DNA from: an uncultured Treponema sp.
GTDB lineage: Bacteria; Spirochaetota; Spirochaetia; Treponematales; Treponemataceae
Assembly: GCA_947166355.1 (NCBI GenBank)
Contig: CAMVDX010000004.1
Span: 62,001-126,000 of the forward strand
Direction: 5' to 3'
DNA: 64,000 nucleotides
Below the pieces are notes generated by a model. That model searched no databases. It worked only from the letters and a program-made list of their open reading frames with translations, and was not told the DNA's origin. Shown here piece after piece: positions 31,293 to 56,663 of this stretch; the first letter of the stretch is position 1; every line of letters begins with the position of its first letter. A program made the translations under genes and the position numbers.

Positions 31293-31308
31293 ACGACAAA
31301 GAGGTCGT
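31293..31308 (+). promoter_or_regulatory. ANTAR-type antiterminator hairpin, gltB leader
   Basis: Stem ACGAC/GTCGT closes the hexaloop AAAGAG (31298-31303), with A at loop position 1 and G at position 4, the signature of ANTAR-binding loops. The 3' arm GTCGT is also part of the 5' arm of the terminator at 31302, so the two structures exclude each other. Confidence 0.7.
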
Positions 31309-31356
31309 AGATAATGTTTCATTTTTATAATGAAATTTTGTCTACGACCTTTTTTG
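31302..31356 (+). terminator. leader terminator 1 of gltB
   Basis: AGGTCGTAGA (31302-31311) pairs with TCTACGACCT (31341-31350), with an inner TTTCAT/ATGAAA stem, followed by six T. It lies ~100 bases before the gltB start and would stop transcription unless the ANTAR hairpin forms. Confidence 0.85.
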
Positions 31357-31384
31357 TTTTTAAATAATCTGAAAGTCGACGAAG

Positions 31385-31425
31385 AAGCCGCAGGTATAGG
31401 ATAACTCTATGTCTGTGGCTTTTTT
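31385..31425 (+). terminator. leader terminator 2 of gltB
   Basis: AAGCCGCAG (31385-31393) pairs with CTGTGGCTT (31413-31421), followed by a T run. Just before it CGAC-GAAGAA-GCCG (31377-31390) could form a weak hexaloop hairpin (one A-C mismatch, G at loop position 1) overlapping the stem, as for terminator 1. Confidence 0.65.
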
Positions 31426-31451
31426 GTTTTTTTGACTTAAAAGGAAATTAA

Positions 31452-34400
31452 ATGAAAACACTCTATGAACCGGTTTTTGAACATGACAACTGTGGAATTG
31501 GTGCAGTTGTTAATATTGATGGAACTAAATCTTATAAAATTGTAGATAATGCTTTAAGTATAGTTGAAAAACTTGAACACAGGGCAGGTAAAGATGCAAG
31601 TGGTGAAACAGGGGACGGTGTTGGAATTCTTTTGCAGATTAGTCATGATTTTTTTAGTAAAGCAGCAAAATCTGGAGAAATAATTTTACAAAATGGAGCA
31701 GTCTGTCCTGAATTAAAACGAATTTTTGAAGATAACTCTGAAGAAAAGCAGGGGGGTAGTTCTAACGAACGAAATTATGGTATAGGTCAGTTTTTCTTTC
31801 CTGGTAAAGCAGAAGAAACTTCTTCAATTACAACTGAACTTGAAAAGGTAAGATTTGAAGCATGTTGTAAAGCTGAAAAATTAAAGTTTCTTGGATGGCG
31901 TAAAGTTCCTGTTAATGCTGAAGTTCTTGGTAAAAAAGCGCGGGATTGCATGCCTGAAATCTGGCAGGCTTTTATAGAACGGCCTTCTGATTGTGAAAAA
32001 GGAATTGATTTTGACAGAAGACTTTATATTTTACGACGTGAATTTGAAAAGGAAAAAGCTTCTCCAACATACATTTGTTCTTTAAGCAGCCGTACAATTG
32101 TTTATAAGGGAATGTTTCTGGTTCATGAGCTCCGTACTTTCTATAAAGATTTACAATCGCCGGAATATAAATCCTCTCTTGCAATTGTTCATTCTCGTTT
32201 TTCTACTAATACTCAGCCAAGCTGGAAACGAGCGCATCCAAACAGATTTATTGCACATAACGGTGAAATTAATACAATCCGTGGAAATGTTGACCGTATG
32301 CTTGCCAGAGAAGAAACAGTAAGTTCTAACAAACTAAGTAAGTCTGAACTTACAAAAGTTCTTCCGGCAGTTGATACAACCGGTTCAGATTCTGCAATGC
32401 TTGATAATACTCTTGAATTTTTAATGATGAATGGAGTTCCTCTTCCACTGGCAGTTATGATGTGTATTCCAGAACCGTGGAAGCATGATGATAATATGTC
32501 TGCACTCAAGAAGGATTTTTATCATTACTGGGCAACTATGATGGAAAGCTGGGATGGACCTGCCGCAATTCTCTTTAGCGATGGAGACCTCCTGGGGGCA
32601 ACTCTTGACCGAAATGGTTTGAGACCTAGCCGCTATTATATCACAAAAGATAATATGCTGATTTTAAGCAGTGAAGTTGGTGTACTTGATATTCCTGAAG
32701 AAAATATCAAAACAAAATCAAGACTTCAGCCTGGTCGTATTCTTCTTGTTGATACTGTTCAGAAAAAAATAATTAGTGATGAAGAATGTAAAAATATATA
32801 TTCAAAGCTTTATCCGTACGGAGAATGGCTTGATATGAATCTTGTTCATCTTGCTGATTTAAAAATACCAAATAAAAAGATTTCTGTTCATACATTACAA
32901 GAACGCAATATTTTATATCGTGCTTTTGGCTGGAATTATGAAGATGTAAATGAAATGATTCTTCCAATGGCAAAAAATGGAGTGGAGCCTACTGCAAGTA
33001 TGGGGGTTGATACACCTCTTGCAGTAATGAGTGAAAAACATCCAAGTCTTTTCAGTTATTTTAAGCAGCTTTTTGCTCAGGTTACAAATCCACCTATTGA
33101 CAGTCTGCGCGAAAAAATTGTAACTGATACAACTGTTTATGTAGGAACTGATGGTAACCTTTTGCAGCCGACTGCACAGAACTGCAGGGTACTGGAAATT
33201 AATAATCCAATTTTGACAGGAACTGACCTTATTAAAATCGCAGCACTTAATCAGCCGGGTCTTAGAGCTAAAACACTTTCTACATTATATGAATTGTCAT
33301 ACGGATTAGAAACTACTGACATTGTTTCTGATAATAAAAATGATTTTGCGTCATCAAAATCGAATACATGTGACAACTTGAAAGCTGCATTGGATAATTT
33401 GTTTGCACAGATTGATGCTGCGTACTCGGAAGGTTGTAACATCATAATTCTGAGTGACCGTGGAGTAGATCAAAATCATGCTGCTATTCCTGCTATTCTT
33501 GCAACTTCAGCAGTTGAACAATATCTTATTCGAACAAAAAAACGTACTGCAGTTTCGATTATTCTTGAGACTGCTGAGGTTCGGGATGTTCATCAGGCAG
33601 CTATGTGTCTTAGTTATGGTGCACGGGCAATTAATCCTTATCTTGCACATGAAGCAATTGCAGAATTAATTGATCAAAAAATCTTAGATAAGGATTACCA
33701 TACAGCAATTGATGATTACAACAAAGCAATAATAAACGGTATTGTAAAAATTGCGGCAAAAATGGGAATCAGTACAATTCAATCTTATCAGTCAGCACAA
33801 ATCTTTGAAGCTGTTGGAATTGCTAATGATGTTATTGAAAAATATTTTACAAATACAGTTAGCCGAGTAGGTGGTATTGGTCTAAAAGAAATTGAAGAGG
33901 ATGTAAAATATCATCATGCACAGGGTTTTGATCCTGCAAGTCTTACTGTAAATCAGCATCTTGATTCTGTTGGAAAACATAAGTTCCGCCGCGGTCCGCA
34001 GGCAGAAAGTCATCTTTATAATCCGGAAACAATTGTTGCTTTACAACAGGCAACATGTAATGGTGATTATGCACGCTTTAAAGAATATACAGCGTTAGTT
34101 GATTCTAACGAACATCCACATACATTAAGAGCCATGCTTGATTTTAATTTTGAAAAGCCAGAAAATGGCATTCCGATTGATGAAGTTGAACCTGTTGAAA
34201 AAATTGTTCAGCGTTTTAAAACCGGAGCAATGTCTTATGGTTCAATAAGTGAAGAGGCTCACAAATGCATGGCTGTTGCAATGAATCATCTTCATGGAAA
34301 ATCTAATTCTGGAGAAGGCGGTGAAAAACCAGAACGACTGGGAACTGAATATAATTCTGCAATCAAACAGGTTGCAAGCGGACGTTTTGGAGTTACAGAA

Positions 34401-36197
34401 GAATATCTTTTGAGTGCACGGGAAATCCAGATTAAAATGGCACAGGGAGCAAAACCTGGAGAAGGTGGGCACTTACCTGGTAAAAAAGTTTATCCTTGGA
34501 TTGCAAAAACAAGATATGCAACACCTGGCGTTGCTTTAATTTCACCTCCACCACATCATGACATTTATTCCATAGAAGATTTGGCACAGCTTATTTATGA
34601 TTTAAAAAATGCAAACCGTAATGCAAGAATAAGTGTAAAACTTGTTAGTGAAGCAGGAGTTGGTACAATTGCAGCTGGTGTTGCAAAAGCGGGTGCTCAG
34701 GTAATTTTGATTTCTGGTCATGATGGTGGAACTGGTGCTGCTCCAATTTCTTCAATTCATCATGCAGGACTTCCTTGGGAGCTTGGTCTGGCAGAAACAC
34801 ACCAGACTTTAATTCAAAATGGTCTTCGCGGAAGGGTAGTTATTGAAACTGACGGTAAGCTTATGAGTGGACGAGATGTTGTAATTGCTGCTTTACTTGG
34901 AGCAGAAGAATTCGGTTTTGCAACTGCACCACTTATTTCTATGGGCTGTTCAATGATGCGTGTCTGCCAGTTAGATACCTGCCCGTTTGGTGTTGCAACT
35001 CAGAATGAAAAACTTCGTGCTAATTTTCCGGGAAAACCTGAATATGTTGAAAACTTCATGAAGTTTATTGCACAAGAGATGCGTGAAATTATGTCAAAGC
35101 TCGGAGTTCATACAGTTGATGAACTTTGTGGGCGTACTGATTTACTTAAACTTAAAACTACACAGGGCTTTAAGCGTGCCGCTCTTGTAGATATGAGCCG
35201 AGTTCTTGCAAATGGTATAGCTAATAGCGATAAGCAGTTAGCTATTAGCGACTGGAAGAAAGACCGTTCTACTTTTAATTTCAACTTAGATAAAACTATA
35301 GATGAAAGAAGCCTTTTACCATGGTTAGAGTCACACAGAATCGAAACGACTAACGACATTTCCAACAAAAATCCGTGTGATAATCCGTGTGACAAAATAT
35401 CAATTCAGTCCACTGACCGTACTGTGGGAACAATTCTTGGTTCTGAAATCCAGAAGCAGTTTGGCAACTCTCTCGCAGACGATACATTCACTATTAATTT
35501 TGAAGGTGGTGCAGGCCAGAGCTTTGGAGCCTTTATTCCAAAGGGACTTACTCTGCGTCTTACAGGTGATGCAAACGATTCTTTTGGTAAGGGATTGAGC
35601 GGTGGAAAGCTTGTAATTAAAAAGCCTCTTACATTTGAAGGGGAATCTGATAGTAATATCATTGTAGGCAATGTTGCTCTTTTTGGAGCGACAAGTGGAA
35701 GTGCATTTATAAATGGTGTTGCAGGAGAACGCTTCTGTGTTCGTAATTCTGGAGCTGTAGTTGTTGCAGAAGGTTGTGGAGATCATGGTCTTGAGTATAT
35801 GACAGGTGGAATTGCAGTAATTCTTGGAAATACTGGAAAAAATCTATGTGCCGGAATGAGCGGAGGAATTGCTTACGTTTTAGATAAAGAGCATGATTTA
35901 TACAAACGAATGAATCACGAACTTGTAAAAATGTATTCCCTTGATGATGAAACAACGACACTTCAAAATATTTCTGATGAAGAACAACTGAAAAAGCTTA
36001 TAGAACAGCATATTTCTGAAACAAATAGTGAATGTGGAAAAGAAATTCTTGCAGACTGGGAACACTATAAATATTGCTTCAAAAAAATTATTCCAAATGA
36101 TTATCTTAAAGTAATGAAAGAAATTTCTACAGAAGAAAAAAATGGCATTGAACATGAAACAGCAGTTTTAAATGCATTCAAAAAGATTTCAGCATAG
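31452..36197 (+). CDS. gltB: glutamate synthase large subunit
   Basis: 1581 residues, slightly longer than the usual ~1500. The Ntn-type glutaminase Cys is in HDNCGIGAVVNIDG (Cys 14, after a short removable leader). The FMN/synthase domain includes GEGGEKPERLGTEYNSAIKQ and HDGGTGAAPISSIHHAGLPWE, the 3Fe-4S cluster is CSMMRVCQLDTCPFG, and the C-terminal GXGXG beta-helix has GGAGQSFGAF and GEGGH-like repeats. It converts glutamine and 2-oxoglutarate to two glutamates with GltD. Part of the extra length comes from an in-frame palindromic insert at 35216-35252 and a polar stretch after it. Transcribed with gltD (11 bases) and purF behind a terminator-bearing leader. Confidence 0.96.
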   Translation: MKTLYEPVFEHDNCGIGAVVNIDGTKSYKIVDNALSIVEKLEHRAGKDASGETGDGVGILLQISHDFFSKAAKSGEIILQNGAVCPELKRIFEDNSEEKQGGSSNERNYGIGQFFFPGKAEETSSITTELEKVRFEACCKAEKLKFLGWRKVPVNAEVLGKKARDCMPEIWQAFIERPSDCEKGIDFDRRLYILRREFEKEKASPTYICSLSSRTIVYKGMFLVHELRTFYKDLQSPEYKSSLAIVHSRFSTNTQPSWKRAHPNRFIAHNGEINTIRGNVDRMLAREETVSSNKLSKSELTKVLPAVDTTGSDSAMLDNTLEFLMMNGVPLPLAVMMCIPEPWKHDDNMSALKKDFYHYWATMMESWDGPAAILFSDGDLLGATLDRNGLRPSRYYITKDNMLILSSEVGVLDIPEENIKTKSRLQPGRILLVDTVQKKIISDEECKNIYSKLYPYGEWLDMNLVHLADLKIPNKKISVHTLQERNILYRAFGWNYEDVNEMILPMAKNGVEPTASMGVDTPLAVMSEKHPSLFSYFKQLFAQVTNPPIDSLREKIVTDTTVYVGTDGNLLQPTAQNCRVLEINNPILTGTDLIKIAALNQPGLRAKTLSTLYELSYGLETTDIVSDNKNDFASSKSNTCDNLKAALDNLFAQIDAAYSEGCNIIILSDRGVDQNHAAIPAILATSAVEQYLIRTKKRTAVSIILETAEVRDVHQAAMCLSYGARAINPYLAHEAIAELIDQKILDKDYHTAIDDYNKAIINGIVKIAAKMGISTIQSYQSAQIFEAVGIANDVIEKYFTNTVSRVGGIGLKEIEEDVKYHHAQGFDPASLTVNQHLDSVGKHKFRRGPQAESHLYNPETIVALQQATCNGDYARFKEYTALVDSNEHPHTLRAMLDFNFEKPENGIPIDEVEPVEKIVQRFKTGAMSYGSISEEAHKCMAVAMNHLHGKSNSGEGGEKPERLGTEYNSAIKQVASGRFGVTEEYLLSAREIQIKMAQGAKPGEGGHLPGKKVYPWIAKTRYATPGVALISPPPHHDIYSIEDLAQLIYDLKNANRNARISVKLVSEAGVGTIAAGVAKAGAQVILISGHDGGTGAAPISSIHHAGLPWELGLAETHQTLIQNGLRGRVVIETDGKLMSGRDVVIAALLGAEEFGFATAPLISMGCSMMRVCQLDTCPFGVATQNEKLRANFPGKPEYVENFMKFIAQEMREIMSKLGVHTVDELCGRTDLLKLKTTQGFKRAALVDMSRVLANGIANSDKQLAISDWKKDRSTFNFNLDKTIDERSLLPWLESHRIETTNDISNKNPCDNPCDKISIQSTDRTVGTILGSEIQKQFGNSLADDTFTINFEGGAGQSFGAFIPKGLTLRLTGDANDSFGKGLSGGKLVIKKPLTFEGESDSNIIVGNVALFGATSGSAFINGVAGERFCVRNSGAVVVAEGCGDHGLEYMTGGIAVILGNTGKNLCAGMSGGIAYVLDKEHDLYKRMNHELVKMYSLDDETTTLQNISDEEQLKKLIEQHISETNSECGKEILADWEHYKYCFKKIIPNDYLKVMKEISTEEKNGIEHETAVLNAFKKISA
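35216..35252. repeat. palindromic insert inside gltB
   Basis: GCTAATAGC (35220-35228) and GCTATTAGC (35241-35249) are perfect 9-base arms within a polar segment (GIANSDKQLAISDW) between the synthase and C-terminal domains. It reads in frame and looks like a repeat element tolerated in a linker. Confidence 0.6.
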
Positions 36198-36208
36198 GGG
36201 ATTATATT

Positions 36209-37792
36209 ATGGCAAAACCGACAGGATTCATGGATTATAAAAGAAAAGAAAACGGTAATATACCTCCACTTGAGCGTATAAAAAACTTTAAGGAGTTTCA
36301 TCCAAAACTTGATGAACAGGAACGTCGCAAGCAGGCTACCCGCTGTATGAATTGTGGTGTGCCAATGTGCGGCTCCGCAATCAAACTTAAAGGTATGGTT
36401 ACAGGATGTCCTCTTCATAATTATATTCCTGAATGGAATGATGCATTATATAACGGTCAGTTTGATATGGCTGCCTGGAGACTCTTAAAGACTTCGAGTT
36501 TTCCAGAGTTTACAGGCCGTGTATGTCCTGCACTTTGTGAAAAGGCATGTAACTGTGGAAGTCCGGTTGTAAAAGAAGGTTCCGTTACTGTTCATGATAA
36601 TGAATTGTTTATTATCGAAAAAGCATTTGAAACTGGATATATGAAACCTGAAATTCCTGCTAACAGGAGTGGAAAAAAAGTTGCGGTTATTGGAGCCGGT
36701 CCAAGTGGACTTGCTGCAGCAGACTGGCTTAATCGGCGTGGCCATAGCGTCACAGTTTATGAACGCGAAGATAAGGCCGGCGGACTTTTGATGTATGGTA
36801 TTCCTAACATGAAGCTTGATAAAAAAATTGTCGAACGTCGTATTGAATTAATGAAAGCAGAAGGTGTGGAATTTGTGTTTAATGCAGATGTCGGAAAAAG
36901 TTATGCTGCTTCTCAAATAATTCAGGATTATGATGCAATTGCTTTATGTTGTGGTGCAAAAAAGGCAAGAACACTTTCCGCTGCTGGAATTGAAAAAATA
37001 AAAACAGAAAACAAAGGAGCTGCCGGTGGAATAATGTTTGCTGTTGATTTTTTGACTGCCGTTACAAAAAGTGTTGTTGCTACAAATGATGCTCTTGAAC
37101 ATATTGGAATTGAGCCGGCAAATGAACAGATAAATCAAATGCTTTCTCAAAATTTTGGAATTGAAGTTGAAGGGAAAAATGTAATAATTGTTGGCGGTGG
37201 TGATACCGGAAATGATTGTTGTGGTTCTGCAATTCGTCTTTCTTGTAAATCTGTTACGCAGATTGAAATGATGCCTTGTCCGCCGTTGGAACGTACCGAA
37301 AGTAATCCATGGCCTGAATGGCCTAAAATCCTGAAAGTAGATTACGGTGCAGAAGAAAGTAATGCTAAATTCGGAAATGATCCCCGCATATATGAAACAA
37401 CTGTAAAAGAAGTAATCAGCGAAGACGGACATATTAAAGCAGTAAAAACAATAGAAGTTGAGTTCAAAACAATTGATGGAAAACGTCAGCTTGTTGAACG
37501 TGGGGGTACTGAAAAAACGCTTCCTTGTGATTTACTTCTTGTTGCGGCTGGCTTCACAGGCTGTGAAGAATATACCGCACAAGCTTTTGGAACAGATTTA
37601 GGTCCTCGAGGCACTGTCGCTTCTATGGGTAAAGAAACTCCTGAACTTGCCAGTTCTAATGGTTATGCGACGTCTGTTTATAAAGTGTTTACTGCCGGTG
37701 ATATGCACCGTGGACAGTCGCTTGTTGTCTGGGCAATTGCAGAAGGCCGTGAATGCGCAAAACAAATTGATTCATTTTTACTGGAGAAATAA
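36209..37792 (+). CDS. gltD: glutamate synthase small subunit
   Basis: 527 residues. The N-terminal part holds the two Fe-S cysteine groups (CMNCGVPMCGS; CPALCEKACNCG). Then come the FAD-binding VAVIGAGPSGLAAADWLNRRGHSVTVYE and the NADPH-binding VIIVGGGDTGNDCCGSAIR. It supplies electrons from NAD(P)H to GltB. Longer than the ~470-490 usual, with extra residues around the second nucleotide site. Starts 11 bases after gltB; purF follows after 3 bases. Confidence 0.95.
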   Translation: MAKPTGFMDYKRKENGNIPPLERIKNFKEFHPKLDEQERRKQATRCMNCGVPMCGSAIKLKGMVTGCPLHNYIPEWNDALYNGQFDMAAWRLLKTSSFPEFTGRVCPALCEKACNCGSPVVKEGSVTVHDNELFIIEKAFETGYMKPEIPANRSGKKVAVIGAGPSGLAAADWLNRRGHSVTVYEREDKAGGLLMYGIPNMKLDKKIVERRIELMKAEGVEFVFNADVGKSYAASQIIQDYDAIALCCGAKKARTLSAAGIEKIKTENKGAAGGIMFAVDFLTAVTKSVVATNDALEHIGIEPANEQINQMLSQNFGIEVEGKNVIIVGGGDTGNDCCGSAIRLSCKSVTQIEMMPCPPLERTESNPWPEWPKILKVDYGAEESNAKFGNDPRIYETTVKEVISEDGHIKAVKTIEVEFKTIDGKRQLVERGGTEKTLPCDLLLVAAGFTGCEEYTAQAFGTDLGPRGTVASMGKETPELASSNGYATSVYKVFTAGDMHRGQSLVVWAIAEGRECAKQIDSFLLEK

Positions 37793-39319: not shown

Positions 39320-39886
39320 TTATCCATACATTCTGATAATTTCTTCTGCCAGAGTAATTCTTTTTAGACCGCGGTTCATTGCTTCTTTTTCAAGATAGTG
39401 ATGAGCTTCGGCCTCTGACATTTTTAACTGCTGCATCAAAAGCATCTTTGCACGATTTACCTGTTTAATTTCTTCCATTTTTACTTTTAGTTTTATTGTC
39501 TGACTGGAAAGAATCTGAACTCTGTATTGGACTGCGATTGCAATTTTCATCATATTGTAAAAGTAAAAAGGTTCAAAAGGTTTTGTAATTGTTAGTATTC
39601 CATAACCTTCTACACGATAAGATATTTCATCAAAATGTTCATTAGGAACCAAGAGTAGAATTGTCGAATATGAATCAGCAACATTTATTGCAAAATCTGT
39701 ATCGTAGCCATCACCTGAGTCAGCAATAATTATATTGAAGGTTCGCTCTGTTACTAACCGTCGGGCTTCATTAAAATCACTTGTCGTCGTAAGATCAAAA
39801 AGTGGTTGTACGAGGAAAGCGGAGATTTGAGAAATTATTTTATTATCGCGCGATACTAAAAGAACGCTGTGACTTTCTGCTTCCAT
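39320..39886 (-). CDS. ANTAR-domain response regulator (RNA-binding antiterminator)
   Basis: 188 residues. The N-terminal ~120 residues are a receiver-like domain (SVLLVSRDNKIISQISAFL; FNIIIADSGDGYD; ILTITKPFEPF). An Asp lies near the phospho-acceptor position, but the usual acidic pair and the Thr/Ser strand are not recognisable, so phosphorylation is doubtful. A helical linker leads to a clear ANTAR domain (~125-188: KMEEIKQVNRAKMLLMQQLKMSEAEAHHYLEKEAMNRG, TLAEEIIRMYG). ANTAR proteins such as NasR, AmiR and EutV bind hexaloop RNA hairpins to prevent termination. Last gene of the carB-asnB-carB-pyrG-glnA operon, which itself has such a leader. No cognate kinase is nearby. Confidence 0.92.
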   Translation of the reverse strand: MEAESHSVLLVSRDNKIISQISAFLVQPLFDLTTTSDFNEARRLVTERTFNIIIADSGDGYDTDFAINVADSYSTILLLVPNEHFDEISYRVEGYGILTITKPFEPFYFYNMMKIAIAVQYRVQILSSQTIKLKVKMEEIKQVNRAKMLLMQQLKMSEAEAHHYLEKEAMNRGLKRITLAEEIIRMYG

Positions 39887-39914: not shown

Positions 39915-41126
39915 CTAGTTTATTAGTTCTCCAAAAACCTTTTTTACAAAACTGCTGTTTTGTGCAAGCCTTTTAGCTTCTGATAAAGATTTTGGCAGTG
40001 CCTTTAATTCGCATTTTTTTGCGACTTCTTCATCGAATAAGTTTTCTTCTGTAACAGCAGGCGGTTCAATTTGATTTTTAATTCCTTCGATTGCAGCATT
40101 AATAAGAAGGGTAAAAGCAAGATAAGGATTACAAAGCGGGTCTGGAGAACGCAGTTCAAGTCTTTTTGTTCCTTTCGTTGAAGGAACTCGAATCAGAGTT
40201 GAGCGATTTTCTTTTCCCCAGGATATATATTCAGGAGCTTTGCTTGCCCCTAAACGGTTATATGAGTTTTCGACGGGATTTAGAAAATATGTAATTTCTT
40301 CTATATGTGACAGAATTCCACCAAGAATATACTTTAAGAGACTTTGTGAATTATCTTCAGTTGTTACCATATTGTTATTTCGATATGAAATATTTATATG
40401 CATTCCGTTACCTGCCTGACCTGCGATCGGCTTTGGAGAAAAATCTGCATATAGTCCATTACTTGCTGCCTTAGTATTAACAATCCATTTAAAGGTTGCA
40501 ACATTATCTGCGGCAGTAAGAGCATCTGAATAATGAAAATCAATTTCATTCTGACCTGGACCTTCTTCATGATGACTTGCTTCTGGACTAATTCCCATCT
40601 GTTCAAGAGTAAAACAAATTTCACGACGGATGTTCTCTCCATGATCTTCGGGAGCAATGTCCATATAACCAGCTTTATCAAAAGTTTCTGTTGTTGGTTC
40701 ACCGTTTTCGTTGAGCTTAAATAAATAAAACTCAACTTCAGTTCCAATCATCATTTCAATACCGCATTCATCTTTTAATTTTTTGCAGGCATTTTGTAAA
40801 ATAGTTCTACTGTCTTTTAGATACGGAGTTCCGTCAGAATTGAAAATATTACAGAACATTCGTACTACCTTTCCAGTAGCAGGACGCCATGGAATAATAG
40901 CAAGAGTTGAAGGATCCGGTAAAAGATAAAGCTCTGACTTCTGTGGGCCTTCAAATCCATCTATAGCAGAAGCATCAAACGGAATTCCGTGTTCGAAGGC
41001 ACGTTCCAGTTCTGTAGGCATAATTGAAATATTTTTTTGCTTGCCTTTTAAATCAAAAAAAGCAAGTCTTATGAATTTTACATCTTCTTCTTCAATAAAT
41101 TCTAATACTTCGCTTCGTGTATACAT
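39915..41126 (-). CDS. glnA: glutamine synthetase type I (short form)
   Basis: 403 residues, shorter than the usual ~440-470. Catalytic motifs: GTEVEFYLF, EEGPGQNEIDFHYSDALTAADN, PKPIAGQAGNGMHINIS, NRSTLIRVPSTKGTKRLELRSPDP. The adenylylation-site tyrosine loop of the beta type is not seen, so control by adenylylation is unlikely; this fits the alpha group. It makes glutamine from glutamate and ammonia. RBS GAGGG precedes the ATG. It lies between pyrG and the ANTAR gene. A second, type III, enzyme is encoded at 52668. Confidence 0.94.
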   Translation of the reverse strand: MYTRSEVLEFIEEEDVKFIRLAFFDLKGKQKNISIMPTELERAFEHGIPFDASAIDGFEGPQKSELYLLPDPSTLAIIPWRPATGKVVRMFCNIFNSDGTPYLKDSRTILQNACKKLKDECGIEMMIGTEVEFYLFKLNENGEPTTETFDKAGYMDIAPEDHGENIRREICFTLEQMGISPEASHHEEGPGQNEIDFHYSDALTAADNVATFKWIVNTKAASNGLYADFSPKPIAGQAGNGMHINISYRNNNMVTTEDNSQSLLKYILGGILSHIEEITYFLNPVENSYNRLGASKAPEYISWGKENRSTLIRVPSTKGTKRLELRSPDPLCNPYLAFTLLINAAIEGIKNQIEPPAVTEENLFDEEVAKKCELKALPKSLSEAKRLAQNSSFVKKVFGELIN

Positions 41127-49699: not shown

Positions 49700-49755
49700 T
49701 TAATAACTTCCTATATAAGTTATGCTGACGCAGCTATAGTGCTGTCAGTATGAAC

Positions 49756-49812
49756 AAAAAAAAGACGCTCATTCCATCTGGGGACAATAATTCCTCAAAT
49801 CAAATGAACGCC
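49756..49812 (-). terminator. leader terminator of carA
   Basis: Minus-strand GGCGTTCATT pairs with AATGAGCGTC (two wobbles), followed by at least eight T. It lies ~60 bases before the carA start. Confidence 0.8.
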
Positions 49813-49819
49813 TTTGTTC
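49806..49819 (-). promoter_or_regulatory. ANTAR-type antiterminator hairpin, carA leader
   Basis: Minus strand GAAC-AAAGGC-GTTC. The stem extends past an A-A mismatch by three more A-T pairs. The hexaloop has A1 and G4. GTTC is shared with the terminator 5' arm. Confidence 0.7.
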
Positions 49820-49825
49820 TTTTAA

Positions 49826-49920: not shown

Positions 49921-49936
49921 ACGGCAAAGAGGTCGT
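49921..49936 (+). promoter_or_regulatory. ANTAR-type antiterminator hairpin, dapF leader
   Basis: ACGGC-AAAGAG-GTCGT: five base pairs including one G-U, hexaloop AAAGAG as in gltB. The 3' arm is shared with the terminator. Confidence 0.7.
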
Positions 49937-49982
49937 AGATATAAATCTCCTCAAGGGATTTATGTCTACGACCTCTTTTTTT
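49929..49982 (+). terminator. leader terminator of dapF
   Basis: GAGGTCGTAGA (49929-49939) pairs perfectly with TCTACGACCTC (49965-49975), with inner ATAAATC/GATTTAT, then seven T. Confidence 0.88.
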
Positions 49983-52295: not shown

Positions 52296-52425
52296 TAATG
52301 GATTGCTTCGCCTTCGGCTCGCAATGACATACTACTATTCCGAGTTATTGCGAGGAGCGAAGCGATGTGGCAATCTACAATGTCATTGCGAGGAGCAAAG
52401 CGACGTGGCAATCTGTAATATTTTT
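52296..52425. repeat. dispersed repeats of the ATTGCGAGGAGCGAAGCGA family
   Basis: Three units in alternate orientation (GGATTGCTTCG...CTCGCAATGAC; TTGCGAGGAGCGAAGCGATG; TTGCGAGGAGCAAAGCGACG) with GTGGCAATCT tails. Also present near 21350. It forms large hairpins and probably ends dapL transcription. Confidence 0.85.
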
Positions 52426-52460: not shown

Positions 52461-52489
52461 TTGACATTTTTTTTTAAGAATTGTATAAG
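52461..52489 (+). promoter_or_regulatory. sigma-70 promoter of glnN
   Basis: TTGACA at 52461-52466, 17-base T-rich spacer, TATAAG at 52484-52489. RNA would start near 52496, just before the first hairpin. Confidence 0.8.
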
Positions 52490-52501
52490 TAAAATAACAA
52501 A

Positions 52502-52515
52502 CGACAATGAGGTCG
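52502..52515 (+). promoter_or_regulatory. ANTAR-type antiterminator hairpin 1, glnN leader
   Basis: CGAC-AATGAG-GTCG. Hexaloop with A1 and G4; the 3' arm is shared with terminator 1. Confidence 0.7.
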
Positions 52516-52543
52516 CAGAAATGGTATTTCTGCGACCTTTTTT
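52510..52543 (+). terminator. leader terminator 1 of glnN
   Basis: AGGTCGCAGAAAT (52510-52522) pairs perfectly with ATTTCTGCGACCT (52526-52538) with a 3-base loop, then a T run. Confidence 0.9.
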
Positions 52544-52592
52544 GTTTTTAAAATTTCCGACTGCCGTTGGCATGTTCGGAGAAACTAACAAT

Positions 52593-52606
52593 CGGCAAAG
52601 ACGCTG
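52593..52606 (+). promoter_or_regulatory. ANTAR-type antiterminator hairpin 2, glnN leader
   Basis: CGGC-AAAGAC-GCTG (one G-U pair). Hexaloop with A1 and G4; GCTG is shared with the second terminator stem. Together with hairpin 1 it makes a two-gate leader. Confidence 0.7.
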
Positions 52607-52651
52607 CGTTTTCATTTTGATGTACACAGAATGAAAGTGCAGCGTTTTTTT
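52601..52651 (+). terminator. leader terminator 2 of glnN
   Basis: ACGCTGC (52601-52607) pairs with GCAGCGT (52639-52645), with inner TTTTCATT/AATGAAA, then seven T. It ends only 17 bases before the glnN start codon. Confidence 0.88.
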
Positions 52652-52667
52652 ATATAGGAGAATAATA

Positions 52668-54773
52668 ATGGACGAAGTAACACCAATTTTTGGCGAAAAC
52701 GTTTTTAATGAAACAGTTATGAAGGCTCGGCTGCCAAAAGAAACATATAAGCAGCTGATGAAGACTATTGAAGGCGGAGAAAAGCTGGATGCATCTGTAG
52801 CAACAGTTGTTGCAAATGCAATGAAAGACTGGGCAGTAGAGAAGGGGGCAACTCATTACACTCACTGGTTCCAGCCTTTGACTGGTATTACTGCTGAAAA
52901 ACACGACAGCTTTATTACACCAGTTGACGGTGGAAAAGTTATCATGGAGTTTAGCGGTAAGGAGCTTGTTCAGGGTGAGCCAGATGCATCAAGTTTCCCA
53001 AGTGGAGGAATTCGTGCTACCTTTGAAGCCCGCGGTTACACTGCCTGGGATCCGACTTCTTATGCTTTTATTAAGGACGGAACTCTTTGTATTCCAACTG
53101 CCTTCTGTTCTTACACAGGTGAGGCACTTGATAAAAAAACTCCGCTCCTTCGTTCTATGCAGGCAATCAGTAAGCAGGCTGTTCGCGTTTTGAAAATGTT
53201 TGAAGGAAACGAAGCAGTAACTTCTGTAAAAACAACTGTAGGTCCTGAGCAGGAATACTTCCTTGTTGATAAGAGCGTTTATGACAAGCGTGAAGATTTG
53301 ATTTATACAGGCCGAACTTTGTTTGGAGCTAAAGCACCAAAAGGTCAGGAACTTGAAGATCACTATTTTGGTATGATTAAACCTCGCGTTCAAGAGTTCA
53401 TGAAGGATTTGAACCGCGAACTCTGGAAGCTTGGTATTCTTGCTAAAACTGAACATAACGAGGTTGCGCCTGCTCAGCACGAGCTTGCTCCAATCTTCTC
53501 TACAACTAACATGGCCTGTGACCACAACCAGCTTACAATGGAAATGATGCGCAAGGTTGCAGCCCGTCATGGTATGGTTTGTCTTTTGCACGAAAAACCA
53601 TTTGCCGGTGTAAACGGAAGTGGTAAACATAATAACTGGTCAATCAGTACTAACACCGGAAAGAACCTGCTTGACCCTGGTGCCACACCTGATCAGAATG
53701 CGCAGTTCCTCCTCTTCCTCTGCGCAATCATCAAGGCTGTGGACGAGTACCAGGATCTGCTGCGTATTTCTGTTGCTTCTGCTGGTAACGACCACCGTCT
53801 TGGAGCTAACGAGGCGCCTCCAGCAATCATCTCTATCTTCTTAGGTGATGAGCTTTCTGCAATTCTCGACTCAATCGAAAAGGGCGTTCCATACGGAAAG
53901 CATGAAAAAGAAAAAATGCAGATTGGTGTTACTGTTTTGCCAGACTTCAACAAGGATACAACAGACCGTAACAGAACCTCTCCATTTGCTTTCACAGGAA
54001 ACAAATTTGAGTTCCGTATGCTTGGTTCAAATGAATCGATTGCATGTGCTAACGTATTCCTGAACACTGTTGTAGCTGAAGAGCTCAGCCAGTTTGCAGA
54101 CATCCTCGAAAAATCAAGCAACTTCAAGAGCGACCTCCACGACTTGATTCTTAAGACAATCAAAGAGCACAAGAGAATCATCTTCAACGGAAACGGCTAT
54201 GATGATTCCTGGGTAAAAGAAGCTGAAAAGCGTGGCCTTAACAATCTTAAGTCTACACCAGAAGCTCTTCCACATATTCTCGATGAAAAGAATGTCAAAG
54301 TTTTCGAGAAGTTTGGAGTTTATAGTAAGGTTGAACTAACAAGCCGCTTTGAGATTCACAATGAAAACTACTCAAAAATTATAAACATTGAAGCTGAAAC
54401 TATGCTTGAGATGGCAAAGAAAGATATTCTTCCGGCTGCAAGTAAATATGCAAACAAGTTAGCTGAAACTATCGGTCTTAAAAAATCTGTTTGCAGTGAA
54501 TGTGATGCATCTTATGAAAACGACATGCTTAAAAAAGTAAGCTGCCTTACAAGCTGCATTTACAGCAAAACCGAAAAGCTTGAACAGGAAGTTACTGAAG
54601 CAAAGAAAACTACAGATAATGGAGATTCAAGTAAAACAGCATTCTTCTACCGAGAGCATGTATTTACTGCAATGAACGAACTTCGTGCTGCAGTGGATGA
54701 ACTTGAAACAATTACTCCAAAAGAGCTTTGGCCATTCCCAAGCTACGGTGATCTCTTGTTTAGCGTAAGATAG
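52668..54773 (+). CDS. glnN: glutamine synthetase type III
   Basis: 701 residues, the length of GSIII. Conserved stretches: [64 protein letters not shown] and [17 protein letters not shown]. It is a dodecameric ammonia-assimilating enzyme unrelated in control to type I, often used under nitrogen limitation. AGGAG precedes the ATG. Two terminators, each with its own ANTAR-type hairpin, precede it, the tightest gate in this window. Confidence 0.95.
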
Positions 54774-54884: not shown

Positions 54885-54941
54885 ACGGCGATGATGTCGG
54901 GCATTTGTGCACAATGTCTGATATCATCGCCGTTTTTTTTA
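54885..54941 (+). terminator. leader terminator of the amtB-PII gene
   Basis: ACGGCGATGAT (54885-54895) pairs with ATCATCGCCGT (54923-54933), with inner GCATT/AATGT pairing, then eight T. A competing hairpin CGGC-GATGAT-GTCG (54886-54899) has a hexaloop with G4 but G instead of A at position 1. I could not assign a convincing promoter upstream. Confidence 0.8.
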
Positions 54942-54974
54942 TTCATAAAACGAACTTACACAGGAGGTATACTT

Positions 54975-56663
54975 ATGAGTGAAGTTTGGAGCGTATGGTT
55001 CCTTATTGGTGCTGCACTTGTATTCTTTATGCAGTGCGGTTTTGCAATGGTTGAAACTGGTTTTACAAGAGCAAAGAATGCGGGAAACATCATTATGAAA
55101 AACCTGATGGATTTCTGTATCGGAACTCCAATGTTTATGTTGCTCGGATTCGGTTTGATGATGAGCGAAAATTATTTCTTTGGCTTGATAGGTAAGCCAA
55201 ACATGCAGTTATTTACAAACTTTGCAGAAGGAGACTGGTCTGCATTTGTATTCAACCTGGTTTTCTGTGCAACTGCTGCAACAATCGTTTCTGGTTCAAT
55301 GGCAGAAAGAACAAAGTTCTCTGCTTACTGTATTTACTCAGCTGTAATCAGTGCTGTAGTTTATCCAATTGAAGCAGGCTGGGTTTGGAACTCACAGGGC
55401 TGGCTCGTTCAGCTTGGATTTGTAGACTTTGCTGGTGGTGCTGCTATTCACTCAGTTGGTGGAACTGCCGCTCTCATTGGTGCAATTTTCCTTGGTCCAC
55501 GTATCGGAAAGTATGATTATGACAAGGATGGAAAGGTAACAAAGGTTCATGCTATTCCCGGTCACTCTTTGACACTTGGTGCACTCGGAACATTCATTCT
55601 GTGGTTCGGATGGTACGGATTTAACGGTGCTGCATGTACACAGCTTCTCGGAGTAGGCGGTCTTGCTGCAGTATTCACAACAACAACAATTGCTCCGGCA
55701 GTTGCAGCAGTTACAACAATGCTCTTTACATGGATTAAGAACGGTAAGCCTGATGTTTCCATGACACTCAACGCTTCGCTTGCAGGTCTTGTTGCAATTA
55801 CACCGACTTGTGCTACAGTTGATGCACTCGGAGCATCTATCATTGGTATTGTTTCAGGTATCATCGTAGTTGTTGTAGTAGAATTACTTGACCTTAAGCT
55901 CCATATTGATGACCCGGTTGGTGCCGTAGCAGTTCACCTTGCAAACGGTATCTGGGGTACATTAAGTGACGGTTTGTTCAATGTTGAAAGCGGTGTATTC
56001 TACGGTGGAGGATTCAAGCACCTTGGTGTTCAGTGTCTTGGAGAGTTCACAATTGTTGCATGGACAACAGTCTGTATGATTCTTACCTTTACATTGATTA
56101 AGAAGCTCCACGGTCTTAGAGCAAGCCGCGAAGAAGAAATTGTCGGACTTGATAAGCTCGAACACGGAATCGATTCAAGCTACGCAGGCTTTATCATGGC
56201 ACCACAGGTAATGACAGAAGGAGAAGCTGGACTAGGTGCATCATCTGCTATAAGTGGTTCTGTTTCAATTGAAAAGTCAGTACCAGTTGCAAAGGCAACT
56301 TCCCGCCCTGATGCTAAGTTCCACATGGTTACAATCATTACACGCCAGAGCAAGTTTGAAGATCTCAAGGCTGCCATGAACGACATCAACGTAACAGGTA
56401 TGACAGTTACAAACGTACTTGGTTGCGGCCAGCAGCATGGAAACGTTCAGAAGTATCGTGGTGTTGAAATGGATATGACTCTTCTGCCAAAGATTAAGGT
56501 TGATATCGTAGTCAGCGAAGTTCCGGTAGACCTTGTTGTAACAGCCGCTAAGGAAGTTCTTTACACAGGCCACATCGGTGATGGAAAGATTTTCGTATAC
56601 GATGTTGAAAATGTTGTAAAGGTTCGTACCGGTGAAGAAGGGTACGAAGCACTTCAAGACTAA
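54975..56663 (+). CDS. amtB: ammonium transporter fused to a C-terminal PII signal domain
   Basis: About 562 residues. Residues ~1-405 are an Amt/AmtB channel: ~11 membrane segments, FVDFAGGAAIHSVGG (Asp and first pore His) and GAVAVHLANGIWGTL (second pore His). After a ~40-residue linker, residues ~450-555 are a GlnB/GlnK PII domain (HMVTIITRQSKFEDLKAAMNDI; TVTNVLGCGQQHG; KYRGVEMDMTLLPKIKVDIVV). PII normally plugs AmtB as a separate protein; here it is tethered. The uridylylation Tyr51 position of the T-loop is Met, so no uridylylation there. The frame opens at 54891, inside the terminator; ATG 54975 with AGGAGG is the true start. Confidence 0.93.
   Translation: MSEVWSVWFLIGAALVFFMQCGFAMVETGFTRAKNAGNIIMKNLMDFCIGTPMFMLLGFGLMMSENYFFGLIGKPNMQLFTNFAEGDWSAFVFNLVFCATAATIVSGSMAERTKFSAYCIYSAVISAVVYPIEAGWVWNSQGWLVQLGFVDFAGGAAIHSVGGTAALIGAIFLGPRIGKYDYDKDGKVTKVHAIPGHSLTLGALGTFILWFGWYGFNGAACTQLLGVGGLAAVFTTTTIAPAVAAVTTMLFTWIKNGKPDVSMTLNASLAGLVAITPTCATVDALGASIIGIVSGIIVVVVVELLDLKLHIDDPVGAVAVHLANGIWGTLSDGLFNVESGVFYGGGFKHLGVQCLGEFTIVAWTTVCMILTFTLIKKLHGLRASREEEIVGLDKLEHGIDSSYAGFIMAPQVMTEGEAGLGASSAISGSVSIEKSVPVAKATSRPDAKFHMVTIITRQSKFEDLKAAMNDINVTGMTVTNVLGCGQQHGNVQKYRGVEMDMTLLPKIKVDIVVSEVPVDLVVTAAKEVLYTGHIGDGKIFVYDVENVVKVRTGEEGYEALQD

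Follow-up and report, generated by a model that had tools for sequence, protein, structure and literature searches.

Nitrogen genes and leader units in the window

The window, a 64,000-nucleotide stretch of DNA from an uncultured Treponema whose near relatives are rumen strains and T. bryantii, carries a nitrogen cluster composed of gltB, an ORF labelled gltD, a purF-like gene, an ANTAR gene, glnA, carA, dapF, an aminotransferase gene, glnN and a gene for an ammonium transporter with a fused P-II domain (Table 1). A strong promoter precedes the glnN leader, which contains two units, each formed by a 4-bp hairpin whose hexaloop has A at position 1 and G at position 4 (A1 and G4), and whose 3' strand doubles as the 5' strand of an intrinsic terminator. 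Judging by the promoter consensus, transcription of glnN would start at approximately 52495-52497.

Table 1. Positions of genes and leader elements in the window
Feature	Positions	Strand	Basis or remark
gltB unit 1: CGAC-AAAGAG-GTCG and terminator	31293-31356	+	sequence, covariance model
gltB unit 2: diverged hexaloop GAAGAA and terminator	31376-31427	+	folding, covariance model
gltB	31452-36197		member of nitrogen cluster
ORF taken as gltD (putative)	36209-37792		label only
ANTAR protein, 188 aa, proposed regulator	39320-39886	-	Pfam, similarity, residues
glnA, type I glutamine synthetase, directly upstream of ANTAR gene	39915-41126	-	sequence, Pfam
carA single unit: GAAC-AAAGGC-GTTC	49753-49821	-	sequence, relatives
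dapF single unit (aminotransferase gene downstream): CGGC-AAAGAG-GTCG	49921-49980	+	sequence, relatives, covariance model
glnN promoter: TTGACA (52461-52466), 17-nt spacer, TATAAG (52484-52489)	52461-52489	+	sequence, conserved in relatives
glnN hexaloop hairpin 1 (antiterminator 1): CGAC (52502-52505), loop AATGAG (52506-52511), GTCG (52512-52515)	52502-52515	+	direct reading of sequence, folding, conservation, covariation
glnN terminator 1 with U tract: stem ~52509-52539, T run reaching 52543	52509-52543	+	scan, folding, covariation, covariance model
glnN hexaloop hairpin 2 (antiterminator 2): CGGC (52593-52596), loop AAAGAC (52597-52602), GCTG (52603-52606)	52593-52606	+	direct reading of sequence, conservation, covariation
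glnN terminator 2 with U tract: stem ~52600-52646, T run 52645-52651; TGATGTACACAG in apical loop	52600-52651	+	scan, folding, covariance model
glnN ribosome-binding site AGGAG	52656-52660		
glnN, type III glutamine synthetase (ATG at 52668)	52668-54773	+	Pfam GSIII_N, Gln-synt_C
amt/P-II fusion leader unit: variant loop CGGC-GATGAT-GTCG and terminator	54886-54942	+	terminator scan
Ammonium transporter fused to P-II domain	54975-56663		attenuator-like leader of its own

A sequence-only reading of this DNA had described the glnN leader as two successive hexaloop/terminator units, and direct reading, an independent terminator scan that recovers both terminators, and a covariance model all agree with that description. 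The covariance model, which was trained without the second units of glnN and gltB from the window, recovers glnN unit 2 at 52592-52651 (E 2e-5) and likewise finds gltB unit 2 (E 5e-5). Compared with shuffled sequences, unit 1 folds with an energy of -22.8 kcal/mol (z -7.2) and unit 2 with -27.5 kcal/mol (z -6.4). The hexaloop hairpins by themselves are weak (-4.1 kcal/mol for hairpin 1 and -3.5 kcal/mol for hairpin 2), which fits antiterminators that can outcompete their terminators only with the help of a protein.

Two terminators had also been proposed for gltB, the second accompanied by only a weak GAAGAA hairpin. The sequence bears this out, since the second hairpin (CGAC-GAAGAA-GCCG) contains an A.C mismatch and has G at loop position 1. 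Many relatives carry two gltB units (for example L154, L156, L158 and L160-L163), and their second loops are normal (for example AATGAA, AAAGAG and AATGGG). The most fitting reading of the weak gltB hairpin in the window is therefore a second gate that has diverged, with A1 changed to G. The amt loop in the window also has G at position 1; amt leaders of relatives carry units with A1 and G4, and one of them (L024) has two in series.

The divergent leaders of carA and dapF contain a single hexaloop/terminator unit apiece, with no second hexaloop hairpin in front of it, and one unit is likewise found for dapF and, in the scanned relatives, for carA (17 matches, one of them spurious). Genes for carbamoyl phosphate and diaminopimelate would thereby enter the nitrogen regulon. 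Outside the cluster, the covariance model yields only weak terminator-like matches in this genome; the regulon may exceed the genes named here because the model leaves out the carA type. For a second type III glutamine synthetase gene in the same genome (L213, G000:C5:55666-56550), the part of the upstream region that was read contains no hexaloop unit.

Several other elements were observed around the glnN leader. A hairpin-like segment, CCGACTGCCGTTGGCATGTTCGG, lies between the two gates (52553-52585) and is present too in the close relatives L016, L018, L095 and L097. The apical part of terminator 2 (52616-52630) carries a conserved motif of two alternating classes, a TGTACA type and a GGAGGACGCTCC type, one or the other of which occurs in approximately two thirds of the unit 2 hairpins of the window and its relatives and in no typical unit 1. 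A repeated ATTGCGAGGAGC(G/A)AAGCGA.GTGGCAATCT at 52300-52420, in the gap that separates the glnN promoter from the aminotransferase gene, resembles an interspersed repeat.

Conservation and covariation of the glnN units

A strict automatic test assigned both units to 34, one unit to 10 and no unit to 2 of 46 distinct Treponema glnN leaders; the figure of 34 is a lower bound, because a second unit can be made out by eye in several of the single-unit leaders. The same test applied to 460 dinucleotide shuffles returned four single units and no doubles. When Treponema leaders are instead anchored on the promoter, the first loop (CAANG) is in place in 46 of 48, and the first stem is paired in 44 of those 46, the exceptions (L034 and L035) carrying an A.C mismatch. 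The loops AATGAG, AAAGAG, AAAGGC and AAAGAC all bear the ANTAR signature of A1 and G4.

Spacing from the promoter is also preserved. The arrangement of TTGACA, a spacer of 17-18 nt and TATAA is kept in relatives, and the distance from the -10 box to the hexaloop stem is 10-13 nt in 41 of 43 leaders. Unit 1 was missed by the scan in the two outliers, which look normal when anchored on the promoter. The two loops lie between 47 and 158 nt apart.

Among 70 distinct units, the shared strand pairs with both its antiterminator partner and its terminator partner at three loop-proximal positions, and substitutions are coordinated across all three strands in triples such as A-T-A, G-C-G and G-T-A (for example, ATA replaced by GCG). 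Covariation exceeds that of all shuffles for the hexaloop stem and for the terminator, with units that were selected partly on pairing. The three-way pairing partly reflects this selection, because matches were accepted only if they had three antiterminator pairs plus an overlapping terminator. Taken with conservation in relatives and with spacing, the three-way covariation supports the presence of two successive gates in the glnN leader.

The ANTAR protein and its co-occurrence with the units

The sole ANTAR protein found in this genome is the one encoded within the nitrogen cluster, and its gene adjoins glnA in all 30 Treponema loci examined. The ANTAR domain scores 55.3 bits against Pfam, the protein is similar to AmiR (1qo0) and EutV (6wsh), and the ANTAR signature of three Ala, one Ala/Ser and one aromatic residue is kept (A146, A161, Y164, A169 at the Ala/Ser position, and A180). 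Among 23 recovered receiver domain sequences, Asp56 is kept in 21 and Lys102 in 9, and the acidic pair is largely lost. The receiver thus looks like a pseudo-receiver, and going by these residues its phosphorylation is doubtful.

AmiR-AmiC and NasT-NasS work through partner proteins, and by analogy such a mechanism is more likely for the Treponema protein. Because the receiver is degenerate, GlnA acting on the ANTAR protein is a plausible candidate for the sensor route. NitR of Clostridium saccharobutylicum, which reportedly is encoded downstream of glnA, is said to have been proposed as an antiterminator for glutamine and glutamate synthesis genes; the Treponema cluster resembles that case in having an ANTAR gene beside glnA.

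Units and ANTAR proteins tend to be found, or to be missing, together. Ten Treponema genomes of at least 94% completeness (G126, G112, G097, G081, G111, G087, G116, G066, G045 and G089) lack an ANTAR protein and have glnN leaders without a unit. Two further ANTAR-less genomes, G003 and G092, checked by protein search, also have leaders without the unit, and G084 has both the unit and the protein. Unit-like glnN leaders occur in G118 and G145, two MAGs of 92% completeness in which the ANTAR gene was not found, exceptions that incompleteness may explain. In G059, the ANTAR protein is present and the leader was read as lacking a unit. The association between the unit pattern and ANTAR is modest (Fisher p 0.007; 0.05 among more complete genomes), partly because the pattern also matches coding sequence. 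Five pattern matches in the ANTAR-less genomes G066, G087 and G089 were rejected as units: four lie inside open frames of more than 120 codons, and none of the five has a unit terminator behind it.

Proposed serial single-hexaloop gates in the control of glnN

Most likely, the cluster forms a nitrogen regulon governed by ANTAR antitermination, the principle of which is known, with protein binding, the nitrogen signal and termination predicted from sequence. More specifically, we think it likely that the glnN leader is a two-stage transcription attenuator in which each gate has a single hexaloop and both are controlled by the one ANTAR protein of the regulon. By default, RNA polymerase would halt at terminator 1, and polymerases that leak through would halt at terminator 2. 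Under nitrogen shortage, the glnA-adjacent ANTAR protein (NitR-like and probably a dimer) would bind hexaloop 1 at the extreme 5' end of the transcript and thereby keep the strand GTCG from terminator 1. Hexaloop 2 and terminator 2 would open independently in the same way, such that glnN is made only when both gates are passed. No P1 recruitment hairpin would be involved at either gate. The same protein would also drive gltB through two gates, dapF and carA through one each, and probably amt through one with a variant loop.

In the described class of ANTAR targets, two hexaloops, P1 and P2, precede each terminator (PMC3369931, PMC8934654). EutV requires P1 in vivo, a 20-nt extension of the linker abolishes its antitermination, and the protein has been proposed to pass from P1 to P2 (PMC8934654). 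In the revised definition of Walshe et al., the minimal ANTAR site is one hexaloop; they considered single sites to be usable where transcribing polymerase imposes no time limit, and asked for bioinformatic work on single-hexaloop motifs (PMC8934654). The Treponema leaders share with the EutV, NasR and AmiR target RNAs (PMC3369931, PMC8934654) an A1/G4 hexaloop hairpin with its 3' strand overlapping an intrinsic terminator, nitrogen genes downstream, and an ANTAR protein in the genome. They differ in having one hexaloop per terminator rather than P1 plus P2, in placing the hairpin at the start of the transcript, immediately after the promoter, in arranging two units serially on glnN and gltB, and in occurring in Treponema. 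No A1 and G4 hairpin that could serve as P1 was found upstream of glnN unit 1, where the predicted start, only a few bases 5' of the stem, leaves no room for one. The promoter-to-stem spacing is similarly short in the carA and dapF leaders, and no P1 hairpin was found upstream of their units. This use of one hexaloop per terminator is more unusual than the double gating, and given the need of EutV for P1 in vivo, single-hexaloop gates would require different kinetics.

Each glnN transcript nevertheless has two hexaloops, and the proposed movement of EutV from P1 to P2 (PMC8934654) allows the leader to be read as a split dual motif, in which the ANTAR dimer is first captured by hexaloop 1 and then transferred to hexaloop 2, with terminator 1 as an extra checkpoint. 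We regard this as unlikely: the distance between the loops is too variable for a system like EutV, which does not tolerate a 20-nt extension (PMC8934654), hexaloop 1 already overlaps a terminator of its own, and the carA and dapF leaders contain just one hexaloop.

It is quite improbable that the two gates receive different inputs, with unit 1 responding to the ANTAR protein and unit 2 to another factor that reads the loop class or the apical motif of the terminator. AAWGAG does prevail among unit 1 loops and AAAGRC among unit 2 loops, and the conserved TGTACA or GGAGGACGCTCC apical motif of unit 2 terminators is absent from unit 1. However, loop positions 5 and 6 double as terminator strand and can drift along with it, the single gate of carA has the unit 2 loop class and that of dapF the unit 1 class, and the genome contains only one ANTAR protein. 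Strong terminators alone would lower expression, but it is highly improbable that the hairpins are a by-product of duplicated terminators that fix a low constant level, given that the hexaloop 5' strand, dispensable for termination, is conserved and covaries, that the loops keep A1, A2 and G4, and that the ten well-assembled ANTAR-less genomes have no units.

For a two-stage attenuator under one ANTAR protein, the data fit a logical AND in which two protein units must both be bound, the likely unit being an ANTAR dimer on each hexaloop. The sequence-only reading had suggested that serial gates sharpen the response. In a simple model of independent gates, each with basal read-through p0 and activated read-through p1, this holds only weakly: the effective Hill slope would rise from 1.0 to about 1.2, and the main effect would be to square the on/off ratio (for example, from 9-fold to 81-fold). 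Because the modelled ratio is squared while the slope barely increases, a tight off-state with lower leak is the more likely benefit. By the same model, a tight off-state would be in keeping with double gates on the GS-GOGAT genes, which consume ATP and reductant.

Other systems offer partial parallels. Desulfotomaculum acetoxidans carries at least 13 ANTAR elements in six transcription units (PMC3369931), and has in common with the Treponema cluster a nitrogen regulon in which attenuators outnumber transcription units and glutamate and glutamine synthesis genes are included. Its elements were found with a dual-hairpin model (PMC3369931), and such a model is expected to miss single-hexaloop units. 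Tandem riboswitches and tandem attenuators (PMC9481103, PMC3641672) likewise place serial control elements in one leader; the glnN leader differs in that its proposed ligand is a protein, apparently one for both gates. No Rfam family matches the window at the gathering threshold, and a relaxed threshold gave no credible match either, the best weak one being the trpB motif at 31.7 bits against a cut-off of 59. No report of Treponema ANTAR leaders was found among the openly accessible papers searched.

The evidence tilts towards a widespread class of P1-less, single-hexaloop ANTAR antiterminators, formed by a hairpin at the 5' end, that run nitrogen assimilation in Treponema and Clostridia and are stacked on GS-GOGAT genes. 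If this is true, ANTAR antitermination during transcription does not always depend on P1, and published searches with dual-hairpin models would be expected to have overlooked the class. The double gates of glnN and gltB and the single gates of carA and dapF are natural single-hexaloop switches and thus offer a direct test of the need for P1. Clostridial glnN leaders (L046, L063, L066, L067, L070, L075 and L088) also have P1-less, promoter-proximal terminators with a single hexaloop, and a leader from Lachnospiraceae (L064) has a double unit. In 11 clostridial loci, L063, L064 and L088 among them, the flanks fetched around glnN (up to 5 kb) also contain ANTAR genes related to the one in the window.
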